Shown: positions 15,832 to 30,789 of the stretch, in pieces
How the letters are laid out: the number at the start of each line of letters is the position of its first letter
Position numbering within the stretch: the first letter of the stretch is position 1
NCBI RefSeq assembly: GCF_004801255.1
Contig: NZ_CP036295.1
Location: 372,001 to 436,000 of the forward strand
Direction: 5' to 3'
DNA from: Desulfovibrio desulfuricans
GTDB lineage: Bacteria; Desulfobacterota; Desulfovibrionia; Desulfovibrionales; Desulfovibrionaceae
Length of the DNA: 64,000 nt
The notes under the pieces: model-generated
The model's database searches: none
Told to the model about the DNA's origin: nothing
The model's input: the letters and a program-made list of their open reading frames with translations, nothing else
Translations under genes and position numbers: made by a program

Positions 15832-17748
15832 TCAGGGATGGCGTGCCCGCCACCACAGCTGGAACACCAGCAGCGTCCACAGGGGCTTGCGCAGATCGGC
15901 CCGGCCGGAGACGTGCTCGTCCATGAGGGCGCGCACCGCCTGATAGTTAAAGATTCCCTGCGCCTTGAGCGTTGATTCGCTCAGCAGGTCTTCCATGAGG
16001 GGGCGCATGCGTCCACGCAGCCATTGCGCCACAGGGATCTGAAAACCGCGTTTGTTGCGGTGCAGGATCTCGTCGGGCAGAAGCTCGGAAAAAGCTTTTT
16101 TAAGCAACCACTTGCGTTTGAAACCATGCAGCTTTTTGCTTATGGGCAGGCGCGCGGCAAATTCGGCGGCGTCCTTGTCCAGGAAGGGCGCGCGAACCTC
16201 CAGACTGTGCAGCATGGAGCAACGGTCAACCTTGACCAGAATGTCGTCGAGCATGAACTGGCGGGCATACACATGAAAAGCCCGAGCCAGCGGCGAGGCT
16301 GCGCTTTGCGGCTGCCAGTGCTCGTAATGCTCGCGCGTGGGGGCAAAGAGCTCGTCCGGCGACAAAAAGCCGGGCTGACGGTCCTTGAAGCCCGCATCAA
16401 GGACTGATTCCTGCATTTCCGGGGTAAAAGCCGTCAGCATGGTCTGCACGCGCTGCCACGCAGGCGCGTGGGCCGCCCGCAAAAAGGTGGCCACGGCCAG
16501 ACGCGGATTGATATACCCGGCGGACGACGGCAGCATGCGGGCCAGCGGTTCGATAACGCCCTTGCGCAGGGCGGCCGGGGCGGCGTTGTACCACTGGGCG
16601 ACCTTAAAGCCGATGTAGTGCTCATAGCCAGCCCACAGCTCGTCCGCGCCGTCGCCGCCCAGGGCCACGGTGACCTTCTCGCGCGTAACGCCCGAAAGCA
16701 GCCATGTGGGCGCTACAGAGGCGTCGGCCATGGGCACGTCCATGCGGCTGATGATGCCGGGCAGGGTGTCGGCGCATTCCTCCGCCGACAGCACGCGCTC
16801 GTGGTGGTCAGTGCCAAAGGCCCTGGCCACAATGCGGGCGTAGCGAGACTCATCGTAGCTGGCCTCGCTAAAACCGATGGAAAAGGTCTTGATGGGCGTG
16901 GAAGACTGCCGGGCCATGAGCCCCGCCACGATGGAAGAATCGATGCCGCCCGAAAGAAAAACGCCCAGCGGCACATCACTGACCATGCGGCGTCGCACGG
17001 CGCGGGCCAGCAAAAAGCGCAGCTCCTCGCACAGGTCGTTGTCGCTGCGGCTGTCGGATTCGTCGGGCGTGGGCATGTCCCAGTATCTGGCAATGCGCAG
17101 GTTGCCCTCATGGAGCAGCAGCATGTGCGCGGGGGGCAGGCTTTGCACCTCGGCGTAGACGCTGTGCGGCGTGGGAACATATTCGTACGCCAGGTAGCGC
17201 ATGACCGCCCGGGGATCCAGGCTCAGGCTCAGATGCTTGAGCTGCTCAAGGCCCGTAAGCTCGGAGGCGAAATACAGCCTGCCGTGCTGCACGGTGTAAA
17301 AGAAGGGCTTTTTGCCAAAACGGTCGCGGGCGCAGAACAGGCGGCGCTGCTGGTTGTCCCACAGGGCAAAGGCAAACATGCCGTCAAACCGAGCAAGGCA
17401 GTCCGGCCCCCAGATGCGATAGCCCTCAAGGATGACCTCGGTGTCAGAGCTGGTCTGAAAATGTCCCCCAAGGGCGGTCAGCTGTTCCTTAAGCTCGGCA
17501 TAATTGTATATTTCGCCGTTAAAGGTGACGGTCAGCTGCCCGTCGGCGCTGTGCATGGGCTGCCCGCCGCCGGAAAGGTCAATGATGGAAAGCCGCCTGT
17601 GTCCAAGACACACCGGGCCGTAGCTCCATTGCCCCTCGCCGTCGGGGCCGCGATGGGCCATGCGGTCTGTCATGGCCTTGACCCATTGCCCGGCCTCAGG
17701 CGTGAGAGGTGTGGCATCTATCTGACAAATGCCTGCTATACCGCACAT
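15832..17748 (-). CDS. asnB: Asparagine-synthase-type glutamine amidotransferase
   Basis: 638 residues. Cys2 of MCGIAGICQ is the glutaminase nucleophile, and the N-terminal Ntn domain includes HRRLSIIDLSGG and FNGEIYNY. The synthetase domain has the ATP-pyrophosphatase loop LSGGIDSSIVAG. This enzyme class makes asparagine, but members inside polysaccharide clusters (for example exosortase-linked XrtA amidotransferases) amidate sugar uronates or other carboxylates. It is the last gene of the minus-strand glycan arm. Its start overlaps the stop of the upstream glycosyltransferase by 13 bases, which suggests coupling and a glycan substrate. The exact acceptor is inference. Confidence 0.9.
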   Translation of the reverse strand: MCGIAGICQIDATPLTPEAGQWVKAMTDRMAHRGPDGEGQWSYGPVCLGHRRLSIIDLSGGGQPMHSADGQLTVTFNGEIYNYAELKEQLTALGGHFQTSSDTEVILEGYRIWGPDCLARFDGMFAFALWDNQQRRLFCARDRFGKKPFFYTVQHGRLYFASELTGLEQLKHLSLSLDPRAVMRYLAYEYVPTPHSVYAEVQSLPPAHMLLLHEGNLRIARYWDMPTPDESDSRSDNDLCEELRFLLARAVRRRMVSDVPLGVFLSGGIDSSIVAGLMARQSSTPIKTFSIGFSEASYDESRYARIVARAFGTDHHERVLSAEECADTLPGIISRMDVPMADASVAPTWLLSGVTREKVTVALGGDGADELWAGYEHYIGFKVAQWYNAAPAALRKGVIEPLARMLPSSAGYINPRLAVATFLRAAHAPAWQRVQTMLTAFTPEMQESVLDAGFKDRQPGFLSPDELFAPTREHYEHWQPQSAASPLARAFHVYARQFMLDDILVKVDRCSMLHSLEVRAPFLDKDAAEFAARLPISKKLHGFKRKWLLKKAFSELLPDEILHRNKRGFQIPVAQWLRGRMRPLMEDLLSESTLKAQGIFNYQAVRALMDEHVSGRADLRKPLWTLLVFQLWWRARHP

Positions 17749-19082
17749 TTTTGCTTCCAGATCGTATAGTGTTTGATAAAAATATCCGCCAGCCGCTGGT
17801 TGTTGCGGGTGGGGTCAAACATGTCGGCGGCCAGTTGTTTGCCGTTGTGCGCAAGTCTGTGGGCCAGTGGGGCGTCGTCCGCAAGGCGCTGCAGGGCGTC
17901 GGCCAGGGCTGCGGGGTCGTTGGGCGGAACGGCAAGGCCGGTTTTGCCGTCAAGCACCACCTCGGGCAGGGCGTTGACCGTGGTGCTGACAACAGGCAGA
18001 CCATACGCCAGCGCTTCAATGACAGTGTTGGGGATGCCGTCGCGGCGGCCCGACTCGTGCACCACGCAGGGCGCGGCAAAAATGTCGTGCTCGGCCAGGA
18101 TGCGCGGCAACTCGTTGTGCGAAATAATGCCCGGCAGCAGCACGCGGTCTTCAAGTTGCAGGCTTTCGCGCAGGCGCAGGATTTCCGCTTCCATGCGCCC
18201 CAGGCCCATGACAGCGCCGCCGCCGCCCGCCAGCGTGAGCCTGAAATCAAGCCCCCGGTCGCGCAAAAGTCCGCAGGCCTTGATGAGCACGTCAAAACCC
18301 TTGGTAACGTCAAAGCGGCCAAGAGCAAGCAGTCGCACGGGGCGTTCCATGGGGCCCTGCTCTCCGTCATTTGCCGGGGCGGCCGGGGCGGCATCGTCGC
18401 CTGGCGGCAGGGGCGGCAGGGTGAGGCTGTTGTAGATAAGCTCCACCTTGCCCAGGGTCTGTCCACCGGCAAACGATTCGATACGTTTTTTGTCGGCCTC
18501 GTTATTGGCTCGGACAAAAAAGGCTGCGGTCAGTTTATCGCCAAGATCGGGGTCGGCCGGTTCCAGATTATCGCCCCGGGCGGCAGTGGCATAGGGCAGA
18601 CCGGCAATCCTGGCGGCTACCCAGGCGGCCGTTGCCGTACCACGGGGCCATGGCGCGTAGATCATGTCTATGCCTGCCTCTTTGAACAGGCGGCCCAGAT
18701 ATACGCCCGCGCAAAAGGCCCACAGGTTTTCCCCCAGGGTTTCCCAGCTGCGCCAGCGGCGAAAAAGCGCCTTGCGAAACAGCCGGCCAGTGCGCAGCGG
18801 GTGCAACAGCACCTGCCGAAAGCACTCGCCCAGCACGCGGCCCAGGGCACGAATGCCGTAGGTGTGCGTTTCACCGGCTACGGCGCGCATCTCGTTGGAG
18901 CAGTGGCGCAGGTTCGGGCCGTACAGGCTGTAGACGGAAAGCGGCAGCAAGCCCTTGAGGCCTTCTACTTCCCTGAAAATAAAGGGCTGTGTGAACAGTG
19001 GATACCACAGCAGAACATAGGCCACATGCGGCAAGCCCGTCTTGAAAGCGGGGCGGGAGGCCTGGGTGCTGGTTTCCGTCAT
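17736..19082 (-). CDS. GT4-type glycosyltransferase (paralog of 20216-21589)
   Basis: 448-residue GT-B glycosyltransferase. The N-domain starts VAYVLLWYPLFTQPFIFREV. The C-domain has LLALGRFDVTKGFDVLI, the donor-binding HESGRRDGIPNTVIEALAYG with the EX7E-type glutamate, and GLAVPPNDPAALADAL. No signal or membrane anchor; cytoplasmic, possibly peripheral. It is clearly related along its whole length to the glycosyltransferase upstream. Both begin with the same leader, GGAGAAAACC then ATGAC, which argues for duplication. The start is at 19082. Sugar and acceptor unknown. Confidence 0.92.
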   Translation of the reverse strand: MTETSTQASRPAFKTGLPHVAYVLLWYPLFTQPFIFREVEGLKGLLPLSVYSLYGPNLRHCSNEMRAVAGETHTYGIRALGRVLGECFRQVLLHPLRTGRLFRKALFRRWRSWETLGENLWAFCAGVYLGRLFKEAGIDMIYAPWPRGTATAAWVAARIAGLPYATAARGDNLEPADPDLGDKLTAAFFVRANNEADKKRIESFAGGQTLGKVELIYNSLTLPPLPPGDDAAPAAPANDGEQGPMERPVRLLALGRFDVTKGFDVLIKACGLLRDRGLDFRLTLAGGGGAVMGLGRMEAEILRLRESLQLEDRVLLPGIISHNELPRILAEHDIFAAPCVVHESGRRDGIPNTVIEALAYGLPVVSTTVNALPEVVLDGKTGLAVPPNDPAALADALQRLADDAPLAHRLAHNGKQLAADMFDPTRNNQRLADIFIKHYTIWKQKCAV

Positions 19083-19199
19083 GGTTTTCTCCAAATACGG
19101 CGGGCATTCTCAGCAGGTTGCTGGGTATTGCTCCTGTAGCCGTCTCGCTGTGCGAATATAATCAATGTCGCCATGTTGGTTATTGCAAAAAACAGATAG

Positions 19200-20219
19200 T
19201 TACGGGATTGACGGAGTGCATGTCCAGTCGCCCTTGCCCTGCACTATCGGCGAGGTGGGGCCGAGCTCGCGGCGCAGTTCATCCATGGTCACGCAGTGCA
19301 CGCTATAGAGCCTGTGCAGCCAGTTGAGCCATGCGTCGAGCTTGCCTTTAAAGCGTTCTACCGCCCGGCCGTCGGGCATGTGGGGAGCGCCGCCGGGCAT
19401 CATCTCTGAGGAATGCCAGGTCAACGACAGCACCTGACCGCCCCGCGCCGCATACAGCCGTGTGATGGCGCACATGGCCCAAAGGGGGTGGTAGACGGGC
19501 AGCAGGGCCAGCGCGCCCCAGGTTTTGAGGCTTGCGCGGGCCTTTGCCCCCAGGGGGGCGGGCAGACCGCGCAACAGCCGGGGCAGCGGGGGAACAAGCG
19601 GGGTAACTGTAAGCGGAATTTCAAAAATCTTGCTGTGCCCCGCATTGACCCAGTATGGGTTGGCCGGTGCGTCAAAATGGTCCGGGCCCTCTAGGGCCGT
19701 TGCGGCGCAGTGCAGAGGGCGCACCGAGGCGTCGCAAAGGATGCCCGCCGCTGCGAGCAGCGGCCAGTGGTTGCGGTGCAGGTCCCACCTGCCCATGCGG
19801 AACGAGGTTATGGGCAGGGTTTGAAAAGCCCGGCCAGCCTCCATCAGGGTCGCCAGTTTGGCGGCAAAAAGTTCGTCTGTGAGGGCTGCTGCGGGCACGC
19901 TGTCGGCCTTGTCGGGCAGGGCGCTGTCCGCCCCGTCCAGCGTCAGGGGCGGGGTGTTCCAGTGGTGCAGGTGCGCCCCGATTTCCGCGTTGTGCTCGTC
20001 GCGCAGCCATGCCAGCGTTGCATGCGAACCTTTGTCGGCCAAAACGCTGTGGGCGCAAAACAGAGTGGGGCGGACGCCCAGGGCGCAAAAGGGGGCAAGG
20101 CTCCTGAGGCTTGCGGTGTTGCGCGTGGAAAACCCGCGACGGGCGTAGTGCCCGCCGAAGAGGCCCTCCTCTTCAACATCCAGGCTTACGACCAGATAAA
20201 GCGGCTGCCGTGCGCTCAT
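19200..20219 (-). CDS. Polysaccharide-deacetylase-like (NodB-fold) protein
   Basis: 339 residues. The early VVSLDVEEEGLFGGHYA carries the acidic metal-ligand position of carbohydrate esterase family 4, and EIGAHLHHW supplies the HxxxH-like ligand pair. TSFRMGRWDLH resembles the third motif. No signal peptide, so it would act in the cytoplasm on a lipid-linked or nucleotide-linked sugar. Its ATG overlaps the glycosyltransferase stop (ATGA at 20216-20219), so the two are translationally coupled. 117 bases separate it from the next glycosyltransferase. Deacetylation of an N-acetyl sugar before further modification is the likely role. Confidence 0.78.
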   Translation of the reverse strand: MSARQPLYLVVSLDVEEEGLFGGHYARRGFSTRNTASLRSLAPFCALGVRPTLFCAHSVLADKGSHATLAWLRDEHNAEIGAHLHHWNTPPLTLDGADSALPDKADSVPAAALTDELFAAKLATLMEAGRAFQTLPITSFRMGRWDLHRNHWPLLAAAGILCDASVRPLHCAATALEGPDHFDAPANPYWVNAGHSKIFEIPLTVTPLVPPLPRLLRGLPAPLGAKARASLKTWGALALLPVYHPLWAMCAITRLYAARGGQVLSLTWHSSEMMPGGAPHMPDGRAVERFKGKLDAWLNWLHRLYSVHCVTMDELRRELGPTSPIVQGKGDWTCTPSIP

Positions 20220-21589
20220 GCGTGACCTTCTGCTCCAGAGCCCAGGGGCGCGTGCGCAGGTGCGTCGGCGACAGCCTCGCTGCCGCCGCGTCCGCCGGTA
20301 TTGCGCCAGTACCGCAGGCTTTCGTCCACATAAAGGCGCAGCAGGGCGGAGATGTTGTTTTCGTGATCAAACATTTTTTCCACACGGGCGCGTCCGGCCT
20401 CGGCCATGCGGCTTGCGTGCTCCCTGTCTTCAACCATGTGGCGCACGGCGTTGGCCAGGGCGCGGGGGTTGCGCTGGGGGGTGAGCAGGCCGGTCTCGCC
20501 GTTGATGATAACCTCTGAAATGCCGCAGACATCGGTGGCGATGACAGGCATGCGGTGCGACAGCGCTTCCATGATCACGTTGGGGATGCCGTCGCGGTCT
20601 CCGTTGGAGTGCACAACGCTAGGCATGATGAGCATGTCGTGGTCGAGCATGTAGCCGCATATCTGGTCGTGGGGGATAAAGCCGGGCATGTGCACAATAT
20701 TCTGCAGGCCCATCCTGTCGCGCATGCCCTTGAGCTTGAGCCGCCAGCGACCGTCGCCCACCAGGGTGAGGTTGACGGGGATGTTCTCGCGCTGCAGACG
20801 TGCCATGGCCGTGAGCAGATCAGGAAAGCCCTTGGTGCGGGCAAAGCGCCCCACGGCAAGCAGGCGGTAGGGCGGGCGCATGCTGACAGCGCACTGCCCC
20901 TTGGGCGTAAAGGTCAGGCTGTTGTAAATGGCGTGTACCTTGTCCTCCTGTCCCGAAGGGCAAAAACTGCGCAGCCAGTTTACGTTGGCGTGGTTGTTGG
21001 TGCGGATAAAGAGGGCGTCGGCGGATTTTTCGCGCAGCAGGCCGTCCTGGGGGTAGATGTCGCCCGCGCGGCCGGTAAAGGCAAAGGGAATGCCGGTCAG
21101 GCGCGACGCCACCCACGCCGCCGTGGCCGGGCCGTTTGCCCATGGCGAATGGATAAGCTTGATGCCGTCGCGCTCGCACAGCTCGGCCAGCAAAAAGCCG
21201 GCCATAAAGCACCAGAGGTTTTCACCCAGGGATTCCATATTGCGCATGCGGTGAAAAAACCCCTTGCGCATGAGGGTCAGGACCTTGAGCGGGGTGCGCC
21301 CAAGCGCCCGCAAAAATGCCTGCAGGATGCGCAGCGTGCCCCCCACGCCCATGCGTTCCACCGGGCCGGGAAAGTTGCGCATCTCTTCGCTGCAGCCGCT
21401 CAGGCTTTTGCCGTACATGGTGTAGGCGCGGATGGGCAGGCCCCGCGCCATGAGCTGCACGACTTCGCGAAAGATGAATGTTTCGGAGGAAAGGGGAAAC
21501 CAAAGCAGAACATAGGCAATGGTCGGCAGGTTTTCTGAAACCGGCTGGGATGCGCCTTTGTCTGCATCTGCGCCTGTACAATGCGTCAT
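20216..21589 (-). CDS. GT4-type glycosyltransferase
   Basis: 457-residue GT-B enzyme with the N-domain IAYVLLWFPLSSETFIFREV and the C-domain YRLLAVGRFARTKGFPDLLTA. The donor site reads HSNGDRDGIPNVIMEALSHR, then EVIINGETGLLTPQRNPRAL. The start was placed at 21589 (MTHCTGAD) because GGAGAAAACC precedes it; the longer frame to 21703 lacks a site. It is paralogous to the enzyme at 17736-19082, so the pair may add two successive sugars. It lies downstream of the alpha-oxoamine synthase and is coupled to the deacetylase. Confidence 0.92.
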   Translation of the reverse strand: MTHCTGADADKGASQPVSENLPTIAYVLLWFPLSSETFIFREVVQLMARGLPIRAYTMYGKSLSGCSEEMRNFPGPVERMGVGGTLRILQAFLRALGRTPLKVLTLMRKGFFHRMRNMESLGENLWCFMAGFLLAELCERDGIKLIHSPWANGPATAAWVASRLTGIPFAFTGRAGDIYPQDGLLREKSADALFIRTNNHANVNWLRSFCPSGQEDKVHAIYNSLTFTPKGQCAVSMRPPYRLLAVGRFARTKGFPDLLTAMARLQRENIPVNLTLVGDGRWRLKLKGMRDRMGLQNIVHMPGFIPHDQICGYMLDHDMLIMPSVVHSNGDRDGIPNVIMEALSHRMPVIATDVCGISEVIINGETGLLTPQRNPRALANAVRHMVEDREHASRMAEAGRARVEKMFDHENNISALLRLYVDESLRYWRNTGGRGGSEAVADAPAHAPLGSGAEGHA

Positions 21590-21604
21590 GGTTTTCTCCG
21601 GTGC

Positions 21605-21632
21605 AAACAAGAGCCGGGCCAAACGGCCCGGC
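21605..21632 (-). terminator. Terminator-like hairpin between the oxoamine synthase and glycosyltransferase genes
   Basis: GCCGGGCC (21613-21620) pairs perfectly with GGCCCGGC (21625-21632) around AAAC. On the minus strand it is followed by TCTTGTTTG. It may only partly stop transcription and so tune downstream glycosyltransferase levels. Confidence 0.55.
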
Positions 21633-21762
21633 ACGGCAGACGAACAGACGCCTACCCTGAAAAAAATGAACAGGCAGGATTTCGCCGCATGGCAGGGCGA
21701 CAAAGCGGGAGTGTCAACGCCCGCCCTGGCAACAGTTCGACCGCGATTTGGGTCATAAGAAT

Positions 21763-23082
21763 TTACGCGTCTTCGCCCTCGTTGGCGTGCTGGCGCTTGT
21801 AGTCGTCCACGATGGCCCAGGCCTTGGGAATTTCTTCTTTCACCGCGTCCAGCGCCTTGCGGATGTGGTCTTCGTTGTGCGCGGCAGAAAGGAAGAAACG
21901 CAGGCGGTCCGTGCCTTCCTTGACTGCGGGAAAGGTGATGGGCATCACGTAAATACCGCGCTTGAACAGGGCGTTGGACAAAAAGCCCGCAACCATGGGG
22001 TCGCCCACCATGACGGGCACCACGGCATAACCCTGGGCCGCGCCGGTATCAAGACCGATGCTGGCGGCGTATTCAATAAAGAACTGCGAAATCTTTTGCA
22101 GCTTATGCACCCGTTCGGGCTCGCGCAGCATTATTTCAAGGGCCTTGTGGCAGGCCACTGCGATGATGGGGGGCATGCCTACGCTGAAAACAAAGCCCGG
22201 AGAGCCGTACTTGAGAAACTCGATCAGTTCATGACGTCCGGCGATAAAGCCGCCGCAGCCGCACATGGACTTGGAGAGCGTGCTCATCCACATGTCCACG
22301 TCTGTGGGGTCGATGTTGAAGTATTCGTGCGCGCCACGGCCAGTAGCGCCCAGCACGCCCAGCGAGTGGGCTTCGTCCACCAGCAGCATGCAGTCGTAGC
22401 GTTTTTTCAGCTCGATGATGCGCGGCAGATCCGGGATGTTGCCGTCCATGCTGAACAGCCCTTCGGTAACGATGACGGCGCGTTTGTGCTCAGCGCGCTT
22501 GGCCTTGAGGAGTTCTTCAAGTGCGTCGCAGTCGTTGTGGGCGTACGAGTAGCGCGAAGCGCTCGAAAGGCGCGCGCCCTGCACCAGCGAATTGTGGGCC
22601 AGACCGTCGTGAAAAATGGCGTCGCGGTGGCCAAACAAAAAGCCAAGGGTGGATACGTTTGTCGCGTGACCGCTGACATAAACGATGCAGTCTTCCACGC
22701 CGTACAGGTCGGCAAGGGCGCGCTCAAGCTCCCTGTGCGGGGGGCGTTCGCCGCCGACCAGACGGCTGGCGCCGGCCGATGTGCCGTAAATGCCGGCCGC
22801 CTCGGTGACCGCAGCGGTGATTTCGGGGTGACCGTTGATGTCGAGATAATCGTAGGTGGAAAAGTTGAGATATTCCTTGCCGGAGATGAGCGTGGTGGCC
22901 TTGGCCGCACGTTCATGGCAAAGAAACAGAGGATTTTCCATCCCCATCTTGGCTCCCATTTCCACAAGCCGATCAAAGGCGAGCTTGGAACGCGTGCGGT
23001 TGAATCCGGAAGCGCTGCTTTCGGCGGCGGCGGGAGTTTGCACCGCCTCTTGACCAGCCTGACAGGAATGGTTGTTCTTCAT
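21763..23082 (-). CDS. Alpha-oxoamine synthase (PLP, KBL/BioF/SPT-like; RkpG-type)
   Basis: 439-residue PLP enzyme that condenses an amino acid with an acyl thioester and releases CO2, like serine palmitoyltransferase or BioF. Key parts are YDYLDINGHPEI, GTSAGASRLVGG, the His-rich FHDGLAHNSLVQGA, DEAHSLGVLG (Asp236, His239) and the PLP lysine in STLSKSMCGCGG (Lys271). A roughly 50-residue N-terminal extension precedes the core, as in acyl-ACP-dependent members. The start at 23082 follows GAGGATGAGGC. No biotin genes are nearby; the genes around it are an AT-ACP protein (divergent) and glycosyltransferases. It therefore probably builds an amino-ketone lipid, as proposed for rhizobial RkpG. Substrates are inferred. 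Confidence 0.88.
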   Translation of the reverse strand: MKNNHSCQAGQEAVQTPAAAESSASGFNRTRSKLAFDRLVEMGAKMGMENPLFLCHERAAKATTLISGKEYLNFSTYDYLDINGHPEITAAVTEAAGIYGTSAGASRLVGGERPPHRELERALADLYGVEDCIVYVSGHATNVSTLGFLFGHRDAIFHDGLAHNSLVQGARLSSASRYSYAHNDCDALEELLKAKRAEHKRAVIVTEGLFSMDGNIPDLPRIIELKKRYDCMLLVDEAHSLGVLGATGRGAHEYFNIDPTDVDMWMSTLSKSMCGCGGFIAGRHELIEFLKYGSPGFVFSVGMPPIIAVACHKALEIMLREPERVHKLQKISQFFIEYAASIGLDTGAAQGYAVVPVMVGDPMVAGFLSNALFKRGIYVMPITFPAVKEGTDRLRFFLSAAHNEDHIRKALDAVKEEIPKAWAIVDDYKRQHANEGEDA

Positions 23083-23407
23083 GCCTCATCCTCGTAAATT
23101 TGTCCAAAATAGCCATGCCGGTGGGCCAAGTGGGGGCTGCAATCGGCAGGCGCAACATTGTAAGAAATCAATATAGCCAAAGCAAGAAACTATGGCAAGC
23201 AACGATTGCAGCGGCAACAACAGCCAGTTTGCGGGCAGACAGGGTCTCCTTTGTCCTTGTGGCGGCCAGCGTGAACGGCATTGCCGGCTGGACAAGCTGG
23301 TAGATATCTACTAACATGATCCGTTACCCATTTGGCTGCAACGCCCCTTTTGCCCTGCCTCGATCCTGTCGGGTTGCAGGGCCTTGGCCCTTTACAGGCA
23401 TGAAGAT
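23083..23407. other. Divergent control region of the glycan/lipid island
   Basis: No gene seen. It holds the minus-strand promoter (separate entry). For the plus arm, TTGCCG (23281-23286) and TATCTA (23305-23310) are 18 bases apart. The perfect 12-base palindrome GTAGATATCTAC (23300-23311) overlaps the latter and could be an operator. Both arms of the island could be controlled together from here. Confidence 0.45.
23157..23185 (-). promoter_or_regulatory. Sigma-70-type promoter for the oxoamine synthase arm
   Basis: On the minus strand TTGCTT (23180-23185) is followed after exactly 17 bases by TACAAT (23157-23162), inside an AT-richer stretch about 75 bases before the start codon. Confidence 0.65.
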
Positions 23408-26400
23408 ATGCGTCAGGACTCCGAAAATCCAGCCCAAGACACCCCACAGGGCGAAATAGCTCTTGATGGCGTGCGTTATGCCAATCTGCACCAGGCAGGC
23501 CAGCAGTGGCGCGTTGGTGCGGTCAACCCCGCATGGCGGCAGGAGCTGCTTGCCCTGCCCGCTAATCCTGACGGCAACGACCTTGCCCGGCTGGAAGATC
23601 GCGGCCTGTGGATAGCGCCCGTGCGCGCCGGGGGCACGCCGCCGCTGGCGGTTTTGTGCTGCGGCCTTGGGTCTGTATGGCCTGGCATGGGGCGTGAGCT
23701 GTACGACAACTTTCCCGCTGCCCGCGCGGCCATGGACCGCCTTGCCTCGGTGGCCGACTGGGACGTGCTGGGCCTCATGGACGAAACGGACGTGGAAAAG
23801 GTCAGCCTTACCCGCTGGCAGTCGCCCTACGTCTTCATGCTTGAATACGCCCAGTGGAGCGTGTTGTCTTCGCTGGGGCTCAGCCCTTCGCTGTTTTGCG
23901 GCCACAGTCTGGGCGAAATCATCGGCCTCTGTATCTCCGGTATTCTCGCGCCGGAGGAGGCCTGGTATATCATGGACACGCGCGCCGTGCACATGGCCGA
24001 AATGGAGGCAAGGGCCACCCGCGAGACGGGCATGATGGCCGTGCATGCCGATGCCGAAGCCATCAGCGAAACATGCGCCGCCTTTCCTGCGCTCTATGTC
24101 TCCAACTACAATACGCCGCACCAGTTTATTTTGAGCGGCCCGCGCGAAGTGCTGCAGGAGGCCCGCAAAAGCCTGCGCACACGTCGTATCCCCGCCATTG
24201 TGCTTAACGTGAGTCTGGCTTTTCACCATCCCAGCATGCGCGTCCTGCGCGATATTTCGCTACGCCGTCTGAGCGCGCTCGAAACGCACGCGCCCGCAAC
24301 GCCAATGCTGAGCTGCATTGACGCGCAGTTTTATCCGGGCGACGCCGCATCCACCTGCATGCATATTGCCGATCTGGACGAAAATTCCGTGCGTTGGACG
24401 GAATGTGTGCAGACCATGTGGAACCGCGAGGGCATCAGGTATTTTTTCGAGCTTGGGCCGCAGGATACCCTGTGCAGCCTGGTGACCGACAACGAGCCGC
24501 AGGCCGTCTGTTTTGCGGCGGGACGCAAAGGGCGCGAGGTCGAAGGCATGCGTCAGGCCTGCGCCCGTCTGTACTCGCTGGGCTATCTGCCGCACGCAGC
24601 GGTGAAGAGCCGCGCCGACGCGGCGGCCGACGGCGGCGAATCGCGTCTGCTGGCGTGCATGCCCGCCCCTCATTGCGGGTTGCGCCCCGTTGCGCCGACC
24701 AACCTGGCCCAGGCTGACGGCGCGGGAGCACCCGCAGAACCGGCTCTTTCTGCCGCGGCTGAAAGCGTTCCTGCCGAAACCGGGGGCGACACGGCGGCAG
24801 CCGCGACTGTCGCGACGGCCTCCTACGCCGAAAGCCTTTCGGTTGTGCTGGAAATTCTGGCTCAGGCCTGCGCCAGACCTGTTGCGGACCTGCGCCCCGA
24901 GATGGATTTGCGCTATGATCTGGCGCTGCGTTCCAGCCGCTTTCCCCTGATTGTTCAGGATGTGGAAAAAACGCTGGGCATCAGCGTTAATTTTGAAGAT
25001 CTGCTGCAGGTCTCGACGGTGGGCGACCTTGCACGGGTGCTCTCCGGCGGGAGTTTTCGCGCGGGGCCCCGCGTGGAAACTGCCGACAAGCCCGACGCGA
25101 CGGCCAAAAACTGCGCGGAGCCCCTGCGCAGGTACGCGCCCCTTGCGGAGCTGCCCCCTGCGAATGCCGCAGCAGAGGTATGCCTTGAACCTTTGCCGCT
25201 TGACCCGTGCGCCAGGGGCGTAAGCCTCAAAAACGGCGATGTGCTGGCGCTCCTCGTGTTTGATAAAAATATTCTGCCCCGTCTGCTGAGCGGGATAGCG
25301 CCGCTTGGCTGCGTGCTGGGCGTGCCGCGCGACCTGATTGAGCAGTGCGCTCCCCTGGGCACTGCTGGGGCAAGCCTTGCGCCGCTTGATATTAGCCTGG
25401 AGGATTGCGCCGACGCGTCGCTGGCGGTCAGTCAGGTGCGGGCGGCCATTGCCGGTTTGGCGCAAGACTATGGCCGGGTTGACGGGGTGCTTTTTGTGCC
25501 GCCTGTACCCGCTGGCATAATGGTTGCCGCACCCGAGAATGCAGGCTGCGCCCCAGCGGCGGACGGCATGGGCGACCTGCTGCAAGCTGCGCTTGAGGCT
25601 GCCCAGCCCCATGGGCTGCGGTTTGTCGGCACCTGCTCTGTGCTTGCGCCGCATGCGGAAAACTGCATTTTTGACGCCCCGCTTGACAAAATACTGGCTG
25701 CCGCCAGCGCCAGGGGCCTTGCTGTGCGCGGCATACGCATGCTGCATGGCCCGGAACGCGCCAGTCTTGATGAATGGGGCGACATGCTGGCACGCGAGCT
25801 TTTATGCGGCACAGCCTCCCATGTGCTCTGGGTGCGCCCCGGCTCCCTGACGGGTCCGGTCGCCTGTAATGAGCCTACAGGGGCAGCGCTTGTGCGCGTA
25901 TGCCCGGAGCAGTTTCCTCTGGTTTTTCCCGATCCTGTGCCGCCGTACAGGCCCATGGCCACCCTGTTTCAGGGGGGCTGCCATTTTTCGCGCTTTGCCG
26001 ACAGGGCACTGTCCGTCCACGGCGGGCAGCAGGGCAACAGCCTGGGAGATACGGTACCTACCTTGCCGGTGTGCCGCAGCCTGAAGGCCCTGCTGGAGGG
26101 CGCGCGGCAGTGTCTGCCCTGGCTGAAGGTTTCCGGTTTTTGCGACCTGCGCTTTTTTGACGCGCCAAGGCTTGCCCCCGGCGTCACGCGTGAATGCCTG
26201 GTTACCACCGAGGCCGAGCCCTGGCTGATGCAGGAAAAAGTTATGACGCGCATGTGCCGCAGCACCCTGGCGGTGCGCGGGTTGACGCCCAACGGGCGGC
26301 ATACGGCCCTGTACGCGCCGGTAAGCGAAGGCATGGTGTGGCTTGCGGCCCACGCCAGCGATGTGCGCCCCCTGTGGAACGAGGTGCCCCCGGCCGCGGC

Positions 26401-26896
26401 TGCGAACCATGACGGCGCGGATGTGTCCGGCTATTACCGCAGCATCGGCCTTGGGGCGGACTGGCATCTTGTGGAAAACTTTGCCGTTTTGCCCGAAAAT
26501 TTATATGCAGCGGCTCTGCGTCTGCCGCAGGCACGCATTGCCCCCGGTCTTGATTCTGAGTATAGTGACGTCATGCTTGTGGTAGAGGGCGTGATGCAGG
26601 CCGCACGGCTGGCCATAACCGCTGAATACTCCAAGGATTTTGACGATTCTGCCGCCATGGCTGAGGCCGTTGGCGCATGGCGTCTGCATGCTGTGGGTTT
26701 TATCCGTATGGGTGAGGCCCCGGCAAACGGCCCCTTGCATGTGCTCATGCAGCGCTCCTGGTCTGCCAAGCGTCTGCGCCGGTTTGACGCGCAGGTTGTT
26801 GACAGTAAGGGTACTGTTTTTTTGACTATTCACCATCTTGAATTTGACCGATGCGTCCAGGCGGGGCTCGCGCCAGCCCAGGTACCGTCGGTATAA
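23408..26896 (+). CDS. Acyltransferase-ACP-dehydratase-like multidomain protein without ketosynthase (RkpA-like)
   Basis: 1162 residues from ATG 23408 (an in-frame TTG at 23384 is less likely). Residues about 75-370 form a FabD/PKS-type acyltransferase: catalytic Ser167 in GHSLGE, and His273 in AFHHPSM. Residues about 470-550 look like an acyl carrier domain. The phosphopantetheine Ser509 is in DLALRSSRFPLIV, where DLGADSL is usual. Residues about 580-810 resemble a ketoreductase-sized region with no visible GxGxxG. The C-terminal 300 residues look like a degenerate double-hotdog dehydratase. No ketosynthase or thioesterase is seen. It is divergent from the oxoamine synthase, which could offload its acyl chain. 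rkpA of Sinorhizobium is the nearest analog I recall. Confidence 0.8.
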   Translation: MRQDSENPAQDTPQGEIALDGVRYANLHQAGQQWRVGAVNPAWRQELLALPANPDGNDLARLEDRGLWIAPVRAGGTPPLAVLCCGLGSVWPGMGRELYDNFPAARAAMDRLASVADWDVLGLMDETDVEKVSLTRWQSPYVFMLEYAQWSVLSSLGLSPSLFCGHSLGEIIGLCISGILAPEEAWYIMDTRAVHMAEMEARATRETGMMAVHADAEAISETCAAFPALYVSNYNTPHQFILSGPREVLQEARKSLRTRRIPAIVLNVSLAFHHPSMRVLRDISLRRLSALETHAPATPMLSCIDAQFYPGDAASTCMHIADLDENSVRWTECVQTMWNREGIRYFFELGPQDTLCSLVTDNEPQAVCFAAGRKGREVEGMRQACARLYSLGYLPHAAVKSRADAAADGGESRLLACMPAPHCGLRPVAPTNLAQADGAGAPAEPALSAAAESVPAETGGDTAAAATVATASYAESLSVVLEILAQACARPVADLRPEMDLRYDLALRSSRFPLIVQDVEKTLGISVNFEDLLQVSTVGDLARVLSGGSFRAGPRVETADKPDATAKNCAEPLRRYAPLAELPPANAAAEVCLEPLPLDPCARGVSLKNGDVLALLVFDKNILPRLLSGIAPLGCVLGVPRDLIEQCAPLGTAGASLAPLDISLEDCADASLAVSQVRAAIAGLAQDYGRVDGVLFVPPVPAGIMVAAPENAGCAPAADGMGDLLQAALEAAQPHGLRFVGTCSVLAPHAENCIFDAPLDKILAAASARGLAVRGIRMLHGPERASLDEWGDMLARELLCGTASHVLWVRPGSLTGPVACNEPTGAALVRVCPEQFPLVFPDPVPPYRPMATLFQGGCHFSRFADRALSVHGGQQGNSLGDTVPTLPVCRSLKALLEGARQCLPWLKVSGFCDLRFFDAPRLAPGVTRECLVTTEAEPWLMQEKVMTRMCRSTLAVRGLTPNGRHTALYAPVSEGMVWLAAHASDVRPLWNEVPPAAAANHDGADVSGYYRSIGLGADWHLVENFAVLPENLYAAALRLPQARIAPGLDSEYSDVMLVVEGVMQAARLAITAEYSKDFDDSAAMAEAVGAWRLHAVGFIRMGEAPANGPLHVLMQRSWSAKRLRRFDAQVVDSKGTVFLTIHHLEFDRCVQAGLAPAQVPSV

Positions 26897-26947
26897 ACAC
26901 ACAATCTGCTCAGCGTTGCGCCAACGCAAAAACGCAAAGGGTGCCAG

Positions 26948-28408
26948 ATGCTCACTGCGCAAGCAAACCTTACCACACGTTTTTTTCTGCTGCTGATGCT
27001 TACGGCGGCCTTGCTGGCCGGGGCCTGCTCCAAAAAGGCCGGGCTCAAGTCGCCTGAACTTCCCGCCAAACACTGGCTTGAAGAAGCTCCCGGCGTGCCG
27101 GTGGAAAACAAGAGCAAGCTCGAATCCGCGGTGCCGAACCTGTACGACCCCAAGAAGGTATTTTCCTTTGAGGACTGCGTGTTCCTGACCATCCAGCAGT
27201 CGCCGGCCCTGGTCAACAGCGCTGTGGACATCGAGATCAAGCGTCTTGCCCAGACCGATGCCGTATGGAAGTATCTGCCCGAGCCGCATATGCAGTTTAC
27301 CGTGTCCAACAACCTGACGCGGTACAACATGGACAACAAGGACACCCCCAGCGATTACGGACAGACGCGTTTTCGCGTGGGCTTCTTTGCGGCCTTCCCC
27401 AACCCCATGGCGACCTATTTTGAGCATCAGGTGCAGACGGCCATGGTCAATTTGGCCATTTCCACGCACCGCAAGGCCGTTGGCAAGGCTATCAGCAAGA
27501 TCGGCGAAGCCTACCTGCAGCTGCAGGCCCAGCAAAAAATTGTCGAAGCGCAAAAAGAACTGCTGCCGCTCGGCAAGGAGCTTGTGGATTACTGGCAGAA
27601 GGTGGAATCGGTCGATGGCCGCCAGGGCGTGTCTCTCAACCTGGCTATCCAGCACCAGCGCGAACTTGAGCTGCGGCTTGAACAGACCAGGATGAAAGAG
27701 ATCATGCAGCGCACCAAGCTCAAGATCCTTGCGGGTGTTGAGCCCCAGCAGCGCCTTGAGGTGGACACCAAGAGCGCCGACACGGTTCTGGCCGGTTTTG
27801 ACGGCCACAGGCTTACCTGGGAGGAGCGCTGGCCCGCTACCGAAGACGAGCTGCTGCTGCGCGGTCAGGTAAAACTGGGCGACTACAATATTATGGTCGC
27901 CTGGGCGCAGTACGTGCCCACCATGAGCATCGCCCTCAACAACAACCCGCCGTCTGGTCAGTATCAGCCGACCAGCGGCACTGAAGACACGTTCCTTCAT
28001 CTGACGTTTGACTTCCCGCTCATCGACTGGGGGCGCAGGTATCGCGGCGTGCAGACCGCCCGCATGAACAAGGCCCAGGCCTTCCATGAGCTGGCCCGCA
28101 AGCGCACCGATTATTCCAACCAGTGGCTGCAGAGCGAGCAACGCGTGGCACTGGCCGAAACCGAACTCAAGCTTGCCAAAACCCGGCTGGATACGGCCAG
28201 CATGCAGTTCAAGGAAGCGCAGATTTCCTTCCACGAAGGTATCGTGCAGCTGCCCGACATGGCCAACAAACAGGAAGACATGGTGCAGGCGCGCATTGCC
28301 TATATCAATGCCGATCTTGATTACAAGCTGGCGCAGCTTGAGTGGATGTCGCTTTCCAACTCGCTGGCGCAGCGGTTCCTTGGGCTTCCGGCCAAGGAGG
28401 TTCTGTAA
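26948..28408 (+). CDS. TolC-type outer-membrane channel lipoprotein
   Basis: 486 residues. The lipoprotein signal ends in LLAGAC. The mature protein shows the repeated long amphipathic helices of outer-membrane factors (VGKAISKIGEAYLQLQAQQKIVEAQKEL and the matching second half). A conserved LTFDFPLIDWGRRYRGV precedes the second helical repeat. It should trimerise into a channel-tunnel. It is followed, with a one-base stop/start overlap, by the periplasmic adaptor, so both are made together. It lies 51 bases after the AT-ACP gene. Its cargo is presumably the island's glycolipid or glycan. Confidence 0.92.
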   Translation: MLTAQANLTTRFFLLLMLTAALLAGACSKKAGLKSPELPAKHWLEEAPGVPVENKSKLESAVPNLYDPKKVFSFEDCVFLTIQQSPALVNSAVDIEIKRLAQTDAVWKYLPEPHMQFTVSNNLTRYNMDNKDTPSDYGQTRFRVGFFAAFPNPMATYFEHQVQTAMVNLAISTHRKAVGKAISKIGEAYLQLQAQQKIVEAQKELLPLGKELVDYWQKVESVDGRQGVSLNLAIQHQRELELRLEQTRMKEIMQRTKLKILAGVEPQQRLEVDTKSADTVLAGFDGHRLTWEERWPATEDELLLRGQVKLGDYNIMVAWAQYVPTMSIALNNNPPSGQYQPTSGTEDTFLHLTFDFPLIDWGRRYRGVQTARMNKAQAFHELARKRTDYSNQWLQSEQRVALAETELKLAKTRLDTASMQFKEAQISFHEGIVQLPDMANKQEDMVQARIAYINADLDYKLAQLEWMSLSNSLAQRFLGLPAKEVL

Positions 28409-29370
28409 TGCCTTTTATGCAAAAAATACTTCCGGCAGGGCTGCGGTGCGGCCTGGCCTTCGCCGTTATCGCCTCTGCGGCTCTGGGCGCCTCCTTTGCA
28501 GTGGGCAGCCCGGTGCTGGCGGCTGAAAGTTCCATAGGTGCTGGTGCCACCATTTTGACAGGCAAGGTCGTTACCACGGTAACCCGCGCCGTGCCCGTGC
28601 CCTTTAACGCCGTTGTGGACGAAGTGCTGGTCAAACCAGGTGAAGCCATAGACAAGGGCGCGCCCTTGATGCGCTATCACCTGCAGGAAGAAGCCGAGCG
28701 GGTGCTGCAGCGCGAGGTGACCACCGGCGCGGCAACGGAAGACCTGAAGGGGCAGGTGCTTGATCTGGAGCGCCGCCTTGCGGAGACCTCTGCCCAGCGC
28801 AATAAGGCCCGGCAGCTGGCCGCGTCCGGTCTGGGCTCCGCCCAGGCATCGACCAGGCTTGAAGACGACGTACACTCGCTGCAGCGTCGCATCGACCTTT
28901 TGCGGGTGACCATCCAGAAGTCGGAAAAAAACTTCACCGCGCGGCTCGAGGAGCTGAGCGGGTACTTTGGCACCTCCATCAAGGAAGGCGAACGCCTGCC
29001 CTCCTCGTTGACGCTGACCTCGCCCATCGACGGGTATGTGCTTTCGCTGGACGCCACGCTCAATCCTGGTTCGCTGCTTGCCGCCGGGACCACGCCTGTC
29101 CGTGTGGGTCGGCTTGACCCCGTGCTGATTCAGGTTCCCGTGTACGAGGCGGAAATCAGCGGTATCAAGGCTGGCGACTCTGTCGAAGTGGAAATACCTT
29201 CACTCAACGGCAGGAAATTCAGTGGTACGGTAAATGAAATTTCTTGGGTTTCCAACGACATGAGCGTTTCAAACCCCTCGTACTACACTGTTGAGCTCAC
29301 TGTTCCCAATCCCAATCTTGAACTCAAGCCGGGGTTCAAGGCCGTGGTGCGTTTCAAGGGGAGCAGGTAA
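28408..29370 (+). CDS. HlyD/RND-type periplasmic adaptor
   Basis: 320 residues from the ATG at 28408, which overlaps the TolC-like stop (TAATG) and follows AAGGAGG. A cleavable signal ends near VLAAES. The split lipoyl domain is seen as VPFNAVVDEVLVKPGEAIDKG and LTLTSPIDGYVLSLDATLNPG. Between them is a helical hairpin (LKGQVLDLERRLAETSAQRNKA onward), then a beta-barrel domain. It is short and lacks an N-terminal anchor, as in RND-type adaptors, but no RND or ABC pump gene follows. The next gene, nine bases on, is a flippase. Confidence 0.92.
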   Translation: MPFMQKILPAGLRCGLAFAVIASAALGASFAVGSPVLAAESSIGAGATILTGKVVTTVTRAVPVPFNAVVDEVLVKPGEAIDKGAPLMRYHLQEEAERVLQREVTTGAATEDLKGQVLDLERRLAETSAQRNKARQLAASGLGSAQASTRLEDDVHSLQRRIDLLRVTIQKSEKNFTARLEELSGYFGTSIKEGERLPSSLTLTSPIDGYVLSLDATLNPGSLLAAGTTPVRVGRLDPVLIQVPVYEAEISGIKAGDSVEVEIPSLNGRKFSGTVNEISWVSNDMSVSNPSYYTVELTVPNPNLELKPGFKAVVRFKGSR

Positions 29371-29379
29371 GCCCGCTTC

Positions 29380-30789
29380 ATGAAGCTGAAAAGCATCCCC
29401 CGCAGACTGGGGTACATTCTGGGTGCGCAGTGGACGCGCGACCTGGCATGGACCGCTTTTACCATCCTTTTGGCCCGTCGCAGCCCGGATATCCTGGGAC
29501 AGGTGGTCTTGGCGCTCACGTTTGGCTATCTGGTAAAAACCGTTGCCGACGTGGGTCTCAACGATTTTTTGCTCTCCACCTTTGCCCGTCGCGAGGGACG
29601 GCCAGTGGCCCTGCTGGGTGAGGTTACCTGGCTCAAGATGATTGTTCTCCTGCTGGCGCTGGGCGTGACCTGGCTCGTGACCGGCTGGCAAAACTACGCG
29701 CCGGAGTTGCGGGTGGTTGTCATGTGCATTGCGGCCGGGTTGGGGCTGGACGGGGTAAGTGATTCGTTTTTTGCCTTGTGTCAGGCACGTGGCCGGCAGG
29801 ATGTGGAGATGCGCATTCGCGTGCCCTCGGCCCTGCTGGGCATTGGCTACGGCATAGCCTGCGTTCTGGCGGGAGCGCCGCCCATTGCCATCGCGCTTTA
29901 CAAGCCAGTGGAGTCGTTGTTTTGCATCGTCTTTGCCCTGGTGGCCCTCAAGCGAAATCCCCTGGCAGGCGTGGGCGTGGAGGGGATGAAAGATCTGGCC
30001 CGGCACATGAAGCACGGCCTGGTCTTTACCTGCATGGCCGGTTGCGCCATGTTCTACAACAAAATTAACGTCATATTTCTCAAGCAGTACGGCGGTAATG
30101 CCGACGTGGGCGGCTACGGCGTCGCCTGGGAAACTGTGGAAGGCCTGTCGGTTCTTGTCTCGAGCGCACTGCTGGGCAAGGTTATTTTTCCCCTGCTGGC
30201 CAAGCTCTGGCAGCAGGACAAGGGCGCATTCCGCCAGCTGGCGGGGCAGACCGCGCGTTCGCTGTGGGCGGCCTCGCTACCCATCATTTTTCTTATATGT
30301 GTAGAAAGCGACCGCTTTCTGCCCTTGGTGTACGGTCCCAACTACCAAAGCGCCGTGACGGCGCAGCGGCTGCTGACCCCCTGCCTGGCTACGGCCTTTC
30401 TGCACAATCTGGCTGCCTACGCCATGATCGGCATGCGTCGTCACAAACTGTTGCTGGGATTTTATCTCACGGGCCTCATCTGCAATCTCATCTGCTGTTT
30501 TACGCTTATTCCGGCCATGCCGCTTGAGGGCGCGGCCCTGTCCCTGACCATCACCAAGGTCTGGGTTGCCCTGCTCACCGTGGGATATTTTCAGTGGGCA
30601 GCACGGCCGATGAATTTCGGTCAGTGGGGGCTCATGCTTGCAACCTGCGCCGTCAGCGTGGGGCTGTGGTGGGGCATTGGGCATGCTGCACCCCGCGAGG
30701 TGGCGGAGCTGGCCGGTATTGTTCCGCTGCTGGCGCTGTTTTGGCGCTGGCGGCCACCGCCGCCGTTTGAAAATGCCGCAACCGCCTGA
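29380..30789 (+). CDS. Wzx-like polysaccharide/lipid flippase (MOP superfamily)
   Basis: 469 residues with about a dozen hydrophobic segments in the pattern of oligosaccharide flippases: an N-terminal LGYILGAQWTRDLAWTAFTILLARR, and a central break near FYNKINVIFLKQYGGNADVGGYG, which is conserved in the family. It likely moves an undecaprenyl- or other lipid-linked glycan across the inner membrane. It starts nine bases after the adaptor stop, so adaptor and flippase are co-translated. No Wzy polymerase, Wzz/PCP or initiating transferase is present here, so either a short glycolipid is exported or the missing steps are encoded elsewhere. Confidence 0.9.
   Translation: MKLKSIPRRLGYILGAQWTRDLAWTAFTILLARRSPDILGQVVLALTFGYLVKTVADVGLNDFLLSTFARREGRPVALLGEVTWLKMIVLLLALGVTWLVTGWQNYAPELRVVVMCIAAGLGLDGVSDSFFALCQARGRQDVEMRIRVPSALLGIGYGIACVLAGAPPIAIALYKPVESLFCIVFALVALKRNPLAGVGVEGMKDLARHMKHGLVFTCMAGCAMFYNKINVIFLKQYGGNADVGGYGVAWETVEGLSVLVSSALLGKVIFPLLAKLWQQDKGAFRQLAGQTARSLWAASLPIIFLICVESDRFLPLVYGPNYQSAVTAQRLLTPCLATAFLHNLAAYAMIGMRRHKLLLGFYLTGLICNLICCFTLIPAMPLEGAALSLTITKVWVALLTVGYFQWAARPMNFGQWGLMLATCAVSVGLWWGIGHAAPREVAELAGIVPLLALFWRWRPPPPFENAATA

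Follow-up and report, generated by a model that had tools for sequence, protein, structure and literature searches.

A divergent gene island conserved in Desulfovibrio pairs an RkpG-type alpha-oxoamine synthase with a ketosynthase-less Pfa-type protein and may direct the synthesis and export of an envelope glycolipid

What is made by a locus that sets an alpha-oxoamine synthase (AOS) back to back with an acyltransferase-acyl carrier protein (AT-ACP) protein devoid of a ketosynthase (KS)? The question is raised by an island of Desulfovibrio desulfuricans, at positions 15832-30789 of a stretch of 64,000 nucleotides (the window; G000:C1:372001-436000) from a single-contig genome of 3.25 Mb, in which family-model scans of the window proteins revealed two divergent gene sets flanking a 301-base intergenic region. 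The minus-strand arm encodes the AOS, two GT4 glycosyltransferases, a putative deacetylase and an AsnB-type amidotransferase, and the plus-strand arm encodes the AT-ACP protein, a TolC-like channel, a periplasmic adaptor and a flippase; this gene content and its coordinates, proposed in a first-pass annotation of the window, were borne out by the scans except for the deacetylase. We assign a probability of roughly 0.55 to the reading that the product of the island is an envelope glycolipid built on an alpha-aminoketone (sphingoid-like) base and exported through a split pump resembling MacAB/DevBCA-TolC.

The AT-ACP protein (P0001, 1170 aa; 23384..26896, plus strand, although the real start codon may be the ATG at 23408) contains a KS-AT linker (about residues 27-85), an Acyl_transf_1 domain (91-360) and a PP-binding domain (487-552), and the Pfam scan gave no ketosynthase match in it, in agreement with its earlier description as ketosynthase-less. 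The full-length model (pLDDT 80.9) comprises the linker and AT, the ACP, a Rossmann-like middle and a double hotdog, and about residues 27-417 superpose on KS-AT didomains in a PDB fold search (Z about 33-37). Because almost all fold matches of the whole model were to the AT, the C-terminal part was modelled and searched separately (mean pLDDT 87.5), which returned polyketide synthase (PKS) dehydratases within residues 832-1159 (up to Z 25.4, rmsd 3.1, 287 residues). The dehydratase (DH) named in the first-pass annotation, for which the window protein has no Pfam match, is thus confirmed by its fold.

The kinship of P0001 was examined using a query from the ACP to the C terminus, which gave matches in 12 genus genomes and 17 others among 395 genomes of the phylum. 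Twelve stretches from 11 non-genus genomes encode Pfa-like proteins of 2549-2714 aa, and the two that were scanned have the order NMO(ER)-KS-AT-ACP-KR-PS-DH, where ER and KR denote enoyl reductase and ketoreductase. BLAST alignments of P0001 with the untrimmed Pfa-like proteins open at P0001 residue 18-83, downstream of their KS, and hhalign of the P0001 profile against the post-KS halves of these synthases extended over 1060 columns (E 5e-111). The AT scored 179-226 bits against 12 Pfa-like synthases, compared with 50-108 against 18 RkpA-type or AOS-fused proteins and 77 against FabD; in the AT tree, which included 11 of the 30 P0001 relatives aligned below, it joined the Pfa-like group with moderate support (88/80), outside the 16-row RkpA-type group. 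Given the end-to-end alignment and the AT grouping, P0001 is best described as a Pfa-like synthase minus its ER and KS, homologous over its whole length to the AT-ACP-KR-DH half of these secondary-lipid synthases. An origin as an RkpA remnant was rejected, as scores, tree and profile alignment all place the AT with the Pfa-like synthases. The rhizobial rkpA/rkpG comparison drawn in the first-pass annotation therefore fails for the AT-ACP protein, while for the AOS it is upheld by the tree and the Sinorhizobium meliloti locus described below.

An alignment of the window protein with 30 relatives (excluding the partial L055, L058 and L061, the stop-bearing L014, and duplicate, contig-cut or short loci) showed that AT residues S175, R200 and H281 and ACP residue S517 are invariant across all 31 rows. 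The glycine motif of the KR is absent from every row, the SGGGHGI of L100 being aligned to LLVFDKNI in the window, and the KR region is shrunk to 21 aa in L081 and 29 aa in L080; G001, G003, G010, G019, G028, G045 and G046 have further frames, of 814-917 aa, in which the matches listed leave this region out. Of the DH residues, H879 is found in 26 of 31 rows and an acid at 1068 in 28 of 31. With invariant AT and ACP residues and variable DH residues, the conserved core comes down to loading and carriage, and the hotdog active site is not strictly kept. Besides FabD, the AT of P0001 is the sole AT domain of the window's genome.

The AOS (439 aa; 21763..23082, minus strand; PF00155, 164.9 bits) was placed by two trees. 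For the first, 59 loci yielded 53 matches, of which two (L069 and L099) were excluded because the match contained a stop. The other 51 and the window make up 52 rows, in which a genus clade (25 rows, support 100/99) is nested in a 46-row clade (100/98) that includes the S. meliloti gene and AOS from other loci on plasmids, and is separate from BioF, Kbl, and the prodigiosin-like and Parabacteroides AOS. A second tree, with 14 rows of the first removed and AOS loci from four of the seven searched genomes of a distant family (f12) added, recovered the RkpG clade with both the S. meliloti gene and the window AOS (33 rows, 100/99). We take the S. meliloti locus to be rkpA/rkpG from its gene order, the record itself being without these names. 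The window AOS shares 44% identity with the S. meliloti gene and 45-62% with other clade members, and H163, D236, H239, K271 and R395, presumably the pyridoxal phosphate (PLP) and substrate residues of this enzyme class, are identical in 52 of 52 rows. It scores under three serine palmitoyltransferase (SPT) cut-offs (NF047600, 282.5/640; NF047599, 245.7/500; NF047603, 191.2/670). Type I PKS and capsule genes lie beside the clade-mate AOS in the L069, S. meliloti, Pseudomonas, Caballeronia, Paraburkholderia and Shinella loci; L069 encodes a 2521-aa KS-AT-DH-MT-ER-KR-ACP protein (MT, methyltransferase) and ABC, KpsE-like and SLBB-type genes near the AOS, and the Acidisoma locus has capsule genes and no annotated PKS in the stretch. 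These sequence comparisons put the AOS inside the RkpG clade, whose members come from capsule loci that combine an AOS with a complete polyketide synthase.

RkpA/RkpG have been proposed to make the lipid that anchors or terminates a capsule or exopolysaccharide, and the nesting of the AOS among those of PKS and capsule loci raises the same role for the island, with a long glycan and a polysaccharide-moving exporter. The Wzx, GT4 and AsnB genes are reminiscent of exopolysaccharide loci, and an O-antigen-ligase-like gene (Wzy_C) stands in one f12 island. The island genes scanned, however, include no polymerase, chain-length determinant, SLBB-type exporter or KpsMT; there are just two glycosyltransferases, the export genes are of TolC/adaptor type, and the RkpA-like synthase is replaced by one of a different type, so that we consider a capsule anchor rather unlikely. 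As separate observations on this enzyme clade, part of the genus has a second RkpG-type AOS near an AT-bearing gene (L065, L066, L067, L070 and L074-L077), and plasmid p3 of Planktothrix agardhii (L092:5581-13179) carries, among glycosyltransferases, a type I PKS whose C-terminal part is an AOS from this clade.

Conservation of the pairing was then assessed across the genus. The AOS and AT-ACP genes are both present in 74 of 79 genus genomes, in 52 as divergent neighbours with 255-1184 bases between them, in 3 on the same contig 16-55 kb apart, and in 19 on different contigs, some at contig ends (G012 was counted by a partial AOS match on the AT-ACP contig, not by the fuller one elsewhere, and G007 by one of two copies). 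This joint presence puts the island far from chance, and the gene-neighbourhood check suggested in the first-pass annotation, whether the two arms are conserved together, was thereby passed within the genus. Taken singly, AT-ACP relatives occur in 76 of 79 genomes (in G077 as a C-terminal piece only), and the AOS at an identity of at least 67% likewise in 76 of 79; G004 (63% complete) and G072 (67% complete) have no clear AT-ACP relative and G053 has only the start of the gene, at a contig end. Outside the genus, the AT-ACP arm was found in a single one (G081) of ten genomes representing other genera of the same family, and across 60 genomes from other families of the order the best AT-ACP match had an E of 2.8e-27, the matches listed spanning the AT only. 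A contig search with the AT-ACP protein gave four loci, three of them Desulfovibrio records and one a deltaproteobacterial metagenome-assembled genome. Where the arms lie apart (G005, G062, G034 and G036, all four mapped), both are kept in all four; in G062, a single-contig genome of 1,410,056 bases that may be the published Trichonympha symbiont, they are 55 kb apart. The island is kept in reduced genus genomes of 1.4-1.6 Mb. One in-frame stop is seen in the listed matches at G040:C3:68866-69876 and in the AT-ACP copies of G021 and G051, where the match may merely overrun the true gene end.

Genus-wide conservation that includes genomes of this size is unlike that of a dispensable metabolite, which counts against the possibility that the island makes a small secreted aminoketone-derived metabolite or signal, with glycosylation and a tripartite pump serving its secretion; the flippase and GT4 enzymes likewise point to a lipid-linked glycan. 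A metabolite would be in keeping with the adjacency of AOS and ACP genes in L097 and L098, which we take to be prodigiosin-like, with an AT that is probably malonyl-specific, and with the frequent use of tripartite pumps in metabolite export. We hold it to be improbable.

If the product is instead the proposed glycolipid, a source of chain extension has to be found outside P0001. Three KS matches were seen in the window's genome: one in an apparent fab cluster, one separate and FabF-like (both identified from translations), and one in a 5644-aa frame. All 13 genus genomes probed with the separate FabF-like KS gave a FabF-type match, which was the sole KS match in G062, G009, G036 and G046; close relatives of the query itself (74%) were found in 2 of the 13, with the others at 49% or less. 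A dedicated KS gene as supplier is unsupported by this distribution, and the four genomes with a single FabF-type match indicate that no dedicated KS is conserved. FabF would thus act in trans, or there would be no extension at all. As an observation in its own right, the KS at G000:C1:2259323-2260063 (L085) lies inside the 5644-aa open frame, a putative large assembly-line gene.

The remainder of the minus-strand arm would supply the head group. It encodes an AsnB-type glutamine amidotransferase (638 aa; 15832..17748; PF00733, 352.7 bits; TIGR03108, 604.2 bits, under the cut-off of 816.9), glycosyltransferase GT_A (452 aa; 17736..19094; PF13692/PF00534), a putative NodB-like deacetylase of unconfirmed family (339 aa; 19200..20219) and glycosyltransferase GT_B (495 aa; 20216..21703; PF00534, 119.5 bits; undetected in some relatives). 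Of the earlier gene list for this arm, AsnB, the two GT4 enzymes and the AOS stood, and the deacetylase stays unconfirmed by family models. The 339-aa window protein matched neither Pfam nor NCBIfam, and a PDB sequence search with it gave three matches, none meaningful (best E 0.46). Across 22 aligned rows its family has invariant D/E/H/R/W motifs, which in our view resemble those of NodB-type enzymes, and 7 of the 22 members weakly match DUF3473 (best E 0.0058). Outside the genus, 15 of 383 phylum genomes have NodB-like relatives at E <1e-40, and these co-occur with Pfa-like hits (8 of 17 genomes with such hits vs 7 of 366 others; Fisher p 1.3e-8, kinship ignored; 2 of the 17 hits are in short ACP-sized frames). 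In the stretches covered, the two genes are adjacent in G418 only, and the co-occurrence is therefore not used as proof; nor does a NodB-like gene alone mark the system, since six loci have one without an AOS in the available stretch (L104, L114, L115, L119, L122 and L125). The G418 locus (L104:2861-17342), where a Pfa-like ER-KS-AT-ACP-KR-DH synthase lies beside epimerase and GT2 genes and the NodB-like relative, is a possible further glycolipid locus.

Downstream of the AT-ACP gene, the plus-strand arm continues with a TolC-like outer membrane channel (OEP, 486 aa; 26948..28408; PF02321, 92 bits), a HlyD/MacA-type periplasmic adaptor (MFP, up to 342 aa; 28342..29370; PF16576/PF13437, 63.4 bits) and a Wzx/MOP-type flippase (Polysacc_synt_3, 469 aa; 29380..30789; PF13440, 74.3 bits). 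No energised inner-membrane pump was found within the island, so that of the 'dedicated exporter' claimed in the first-pass annotation the OEP, MFP and Wzx stand and the complete exporter does not, homologues of the pump being located at a second locus. The link to this locus came from ten genomes searched with the window MFP, seven of them from family f12 (the f12 genomes G284 and G475 were outside the set). The MFP has specific kin there, scoring 102-138 bits in the seven f12 genomes and 40 bits or less for any other match in the ten, and in all seven an AOS, a MacB-type permease, an ABC ATPase, an OEP and an MFP stand in a row (domains read in L120). Of the seven stretches, five also contain a NodB-like gene, four a GT4 sharing 40-43% identity with GT_B, and one an AsnB gene; L120 also encodes the O-antigen-ligase-like protein, a radical SAM protein and a zinc dehydrogenase.

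In the window's genome, the f12 permease and ATPase are matched at G000:C1 about 1203-1215 kb (L123:7663-19617), next to a NodB paralogue. This second locus encodes an EamA protein, a phosphodiesterase, the NodB paralogue, GT4 and GT2 glycosyltransferases, a MacB-type permease (MacB_PCD and FtsX), an ABC ATPase fused to a GT4 glycosyltransferase domain (678 aa), an HldE-type protein and a glucokinase. Searched with an f12 permease, 7 of 7 genus genomes gave the second-locus permease as the best match (249-279 bits; next best 68); the second-locus permease is present in each of the 61 genus genomes examined (out of 79), fragmented in G034 and G020, and reaches 101 bits at most in 40 relatives from the order. 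Permease and ATPase-glycosyltransferase fusion are co-present in all 11 loci mapped. For L134 and L135, which come from genomes of 1.4 and 1.6 Mb, the match to the fusion stops at residues 476 and 460, respectively, so that part of the glycosyltransferase domain may be gone; L134 opens 565 bases before the permease, which makes the absence of upstream genes there uninformative, and in L135 the space is available, yet the upstream genes of the second locus are absent. All four parts of a tripartite system are thus encoded, the OEP and MFP in the window and the permease and ATPase at the second locus, and the pump proteins score under the curated cut-offs (DevB, 36.9/129; DevA, 180.1/295.8; MacB, 181.6/966 and 100.8/966). 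From the f12 arrangement and the shared distribution, we infer that the second-locus permease and ATPase power the window MFP and OEP, and would in this way supply the pump that the island lacks.

The surroundings of this pump bear on a further alternative, that lipopolysaccharide (LPS) is modified or partly replaced, with the aminoketone lipid or the sugars entering the LPS pathway and the pump moving an LPS-related glycolipid. The second locus adjoins the HldE-type gene and further glycosyltransferases and, according to a published study, Trichonympha-associated Desulfovibrio with reduced genomes have lost several LPS genes (PMC7608387), while reduced genus genomes keep the island. Among the island genes scanned there is no LPS ligase or lipid A gene, and we give this alternative little credence.

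For the envelope glycolipid, the pathway that we infer, including all substrates, the product, the origin of the chain, the use of this ACP by the AOS, the pump pairing and the direction of transport, would run as follows. The AT would load an acyl unit onto the adjacent ACP, probably malonyl, because the arginine that presumably binds the malonyl carboxylate in related enzymes is invariant. As the AT-ACP protein is without a ketosynthase, housekeeping FabF would most likely build or hand over the chain, and the DH-fold domain would hold the acyl group instead of carrying out a strictly conserved reaction. The AOS would condense the acyl-ACP with an amino acid under release of CO2, and the two GT4 enzymes, the deacetylase-like protein and AsnB would assemble a short head with amino or amide groups. 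The glycolipid would then be flipped by Wzx or the pump, and the OEP and MFP with the second-locus MacB-type permease and ATPase would carry it to the outer surface. More tentatively, and with odds that we would put below even, the product would be a hitherto unrecognised core Desulfovibrio envelope glycolipid on a sphingoid-like aminoketone base, made by an RkpG-type AOS with a 'decapitated' Pfa synthase (AT-ACP and a DH-fold holder, with the ketosynthase missing) as dedicated acyl loader, and exported by a tripartite ABC-TolC pump with a glycosyltransferase-fused ATPase, a system kept in symbiont-sized genomes and maybe replacing part of the lipopolysaccharide.

Several observations weigh against the glycolipid reading. 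The glycolipid is putative; the AOS may use acyl-CoA and bypass this ACP, and a malonyl-loading AT would need an outside KS, a putative pairing, for a long chain. None of the 12 Pfa-like stretches has an AOS match. The deacetylase identity is unconfirmed, and AsnB, with relatives (best 37-56%) in 10 of 10 genomes probed, is no marker of the system. Within the genus, GT_B was undetected in six fetched loci (L040, L041, L057, L058, L061 and L078), neither GT_A nor the deacetylase-like gene was detected in L055, and L042 has no AOS within 4 kb upstream of the AT-ACP gene; in G081, which has the AT-ACP arm, the sole near AOS match groups with RkpA/RkpG-type loci. In f12, the AOS belongs to a different lineage that groups with Parabacteroides (100/99), Wzx and AT-ACP were not found in the stretches, the NodB-like gene of G192 and G399 is on a different contig from the AOS and pump, and L119 and L125 have a NodB-like gene without an AOS in the available stretch. 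The O-antigen-ligase-like gene of L120 would fit a longer glycan, and with hldE-, glucokinase- and glycosyltransferase-type genes at the second locus the pump could serve lipopolysaccharide.

Between the arms, the divergent intergenic control region (23083..23383) has two sigma-70-like sites facing outwards, compared with 0.3 expected in the 501 bases scanned; these are consensus matches only. The island is bordered by an HtpX-like protease on one side and an iron-sulphur protein on the other. Elsewhere in the window, a 1423-aa open frame (59326-63597) occupies its most G+C-rich part (0.68).

If the glycolipid reading is right, a genus of sulphate reducers would have a conserved surface glycolipid, of which a search of open-licence papers turned up no instance. 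It would further mean that a megasynthase can shed its chain-building half and persist as the loading partner of a PLP enzyme, and that the RkpG and Pfa lipid families are tied to TolC-type glycolipid export. In reduced genomes poor in LPS genes the lipid may be of greater weight, provided that the island is kept in some of them.

Compared with known systems, the island shares with RkpA/RkpG, which we take to be equivalent to WcbR/WcbT, the clade of its AOS and the pairing of that AOS with a PKS-type protein bearing a carrier; in L069, however, the partner is the full synthase with capsule-type ABC, KpsE-like and SLBB-type export, whereas the island has a KS-less Pfa-type protein with TolC, adaptor and Wzx. 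Serine palmitoyltransferase pathways have AOS chemistry in common with the island, and the scanned f12 island has an SPT-like AOS (NF047600, 434.9 bits, under the cut-off of 640), whereas the window AOS falls in another clade and stays below all three SPT cut-offs. With the Pfa and secondary lipid synthases the island protein shares a homologous AT-ACP-KR-DH half in the same order, but it is without the ER and KS, and its KR is degenerate or deleted; according to Shulse and Allen (2011), KS, ACP and KR are present in all the secondary-lipid clusters analysed, and heterocyst glycolipids are made by Pfa-type enzymes (PMC3098273). The export arm, for which the first-pass annotation knew of no described pathway, does have a described parallel in the heterocyst glycolipid exported by DevBCA-HgdD (TolC) (PMC6161253). 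The passages on this system mention no AOS, and the pump of the island is split over two loci and under the DevA and DevB cut-offs; in its combination of a Pfa-type lipid enzyme with glycolipid export by adaptor, ABC pump and TolC protein, the Hgl and DevBCA-HgdD system is, by analogy, the nearest described parallel that we found.

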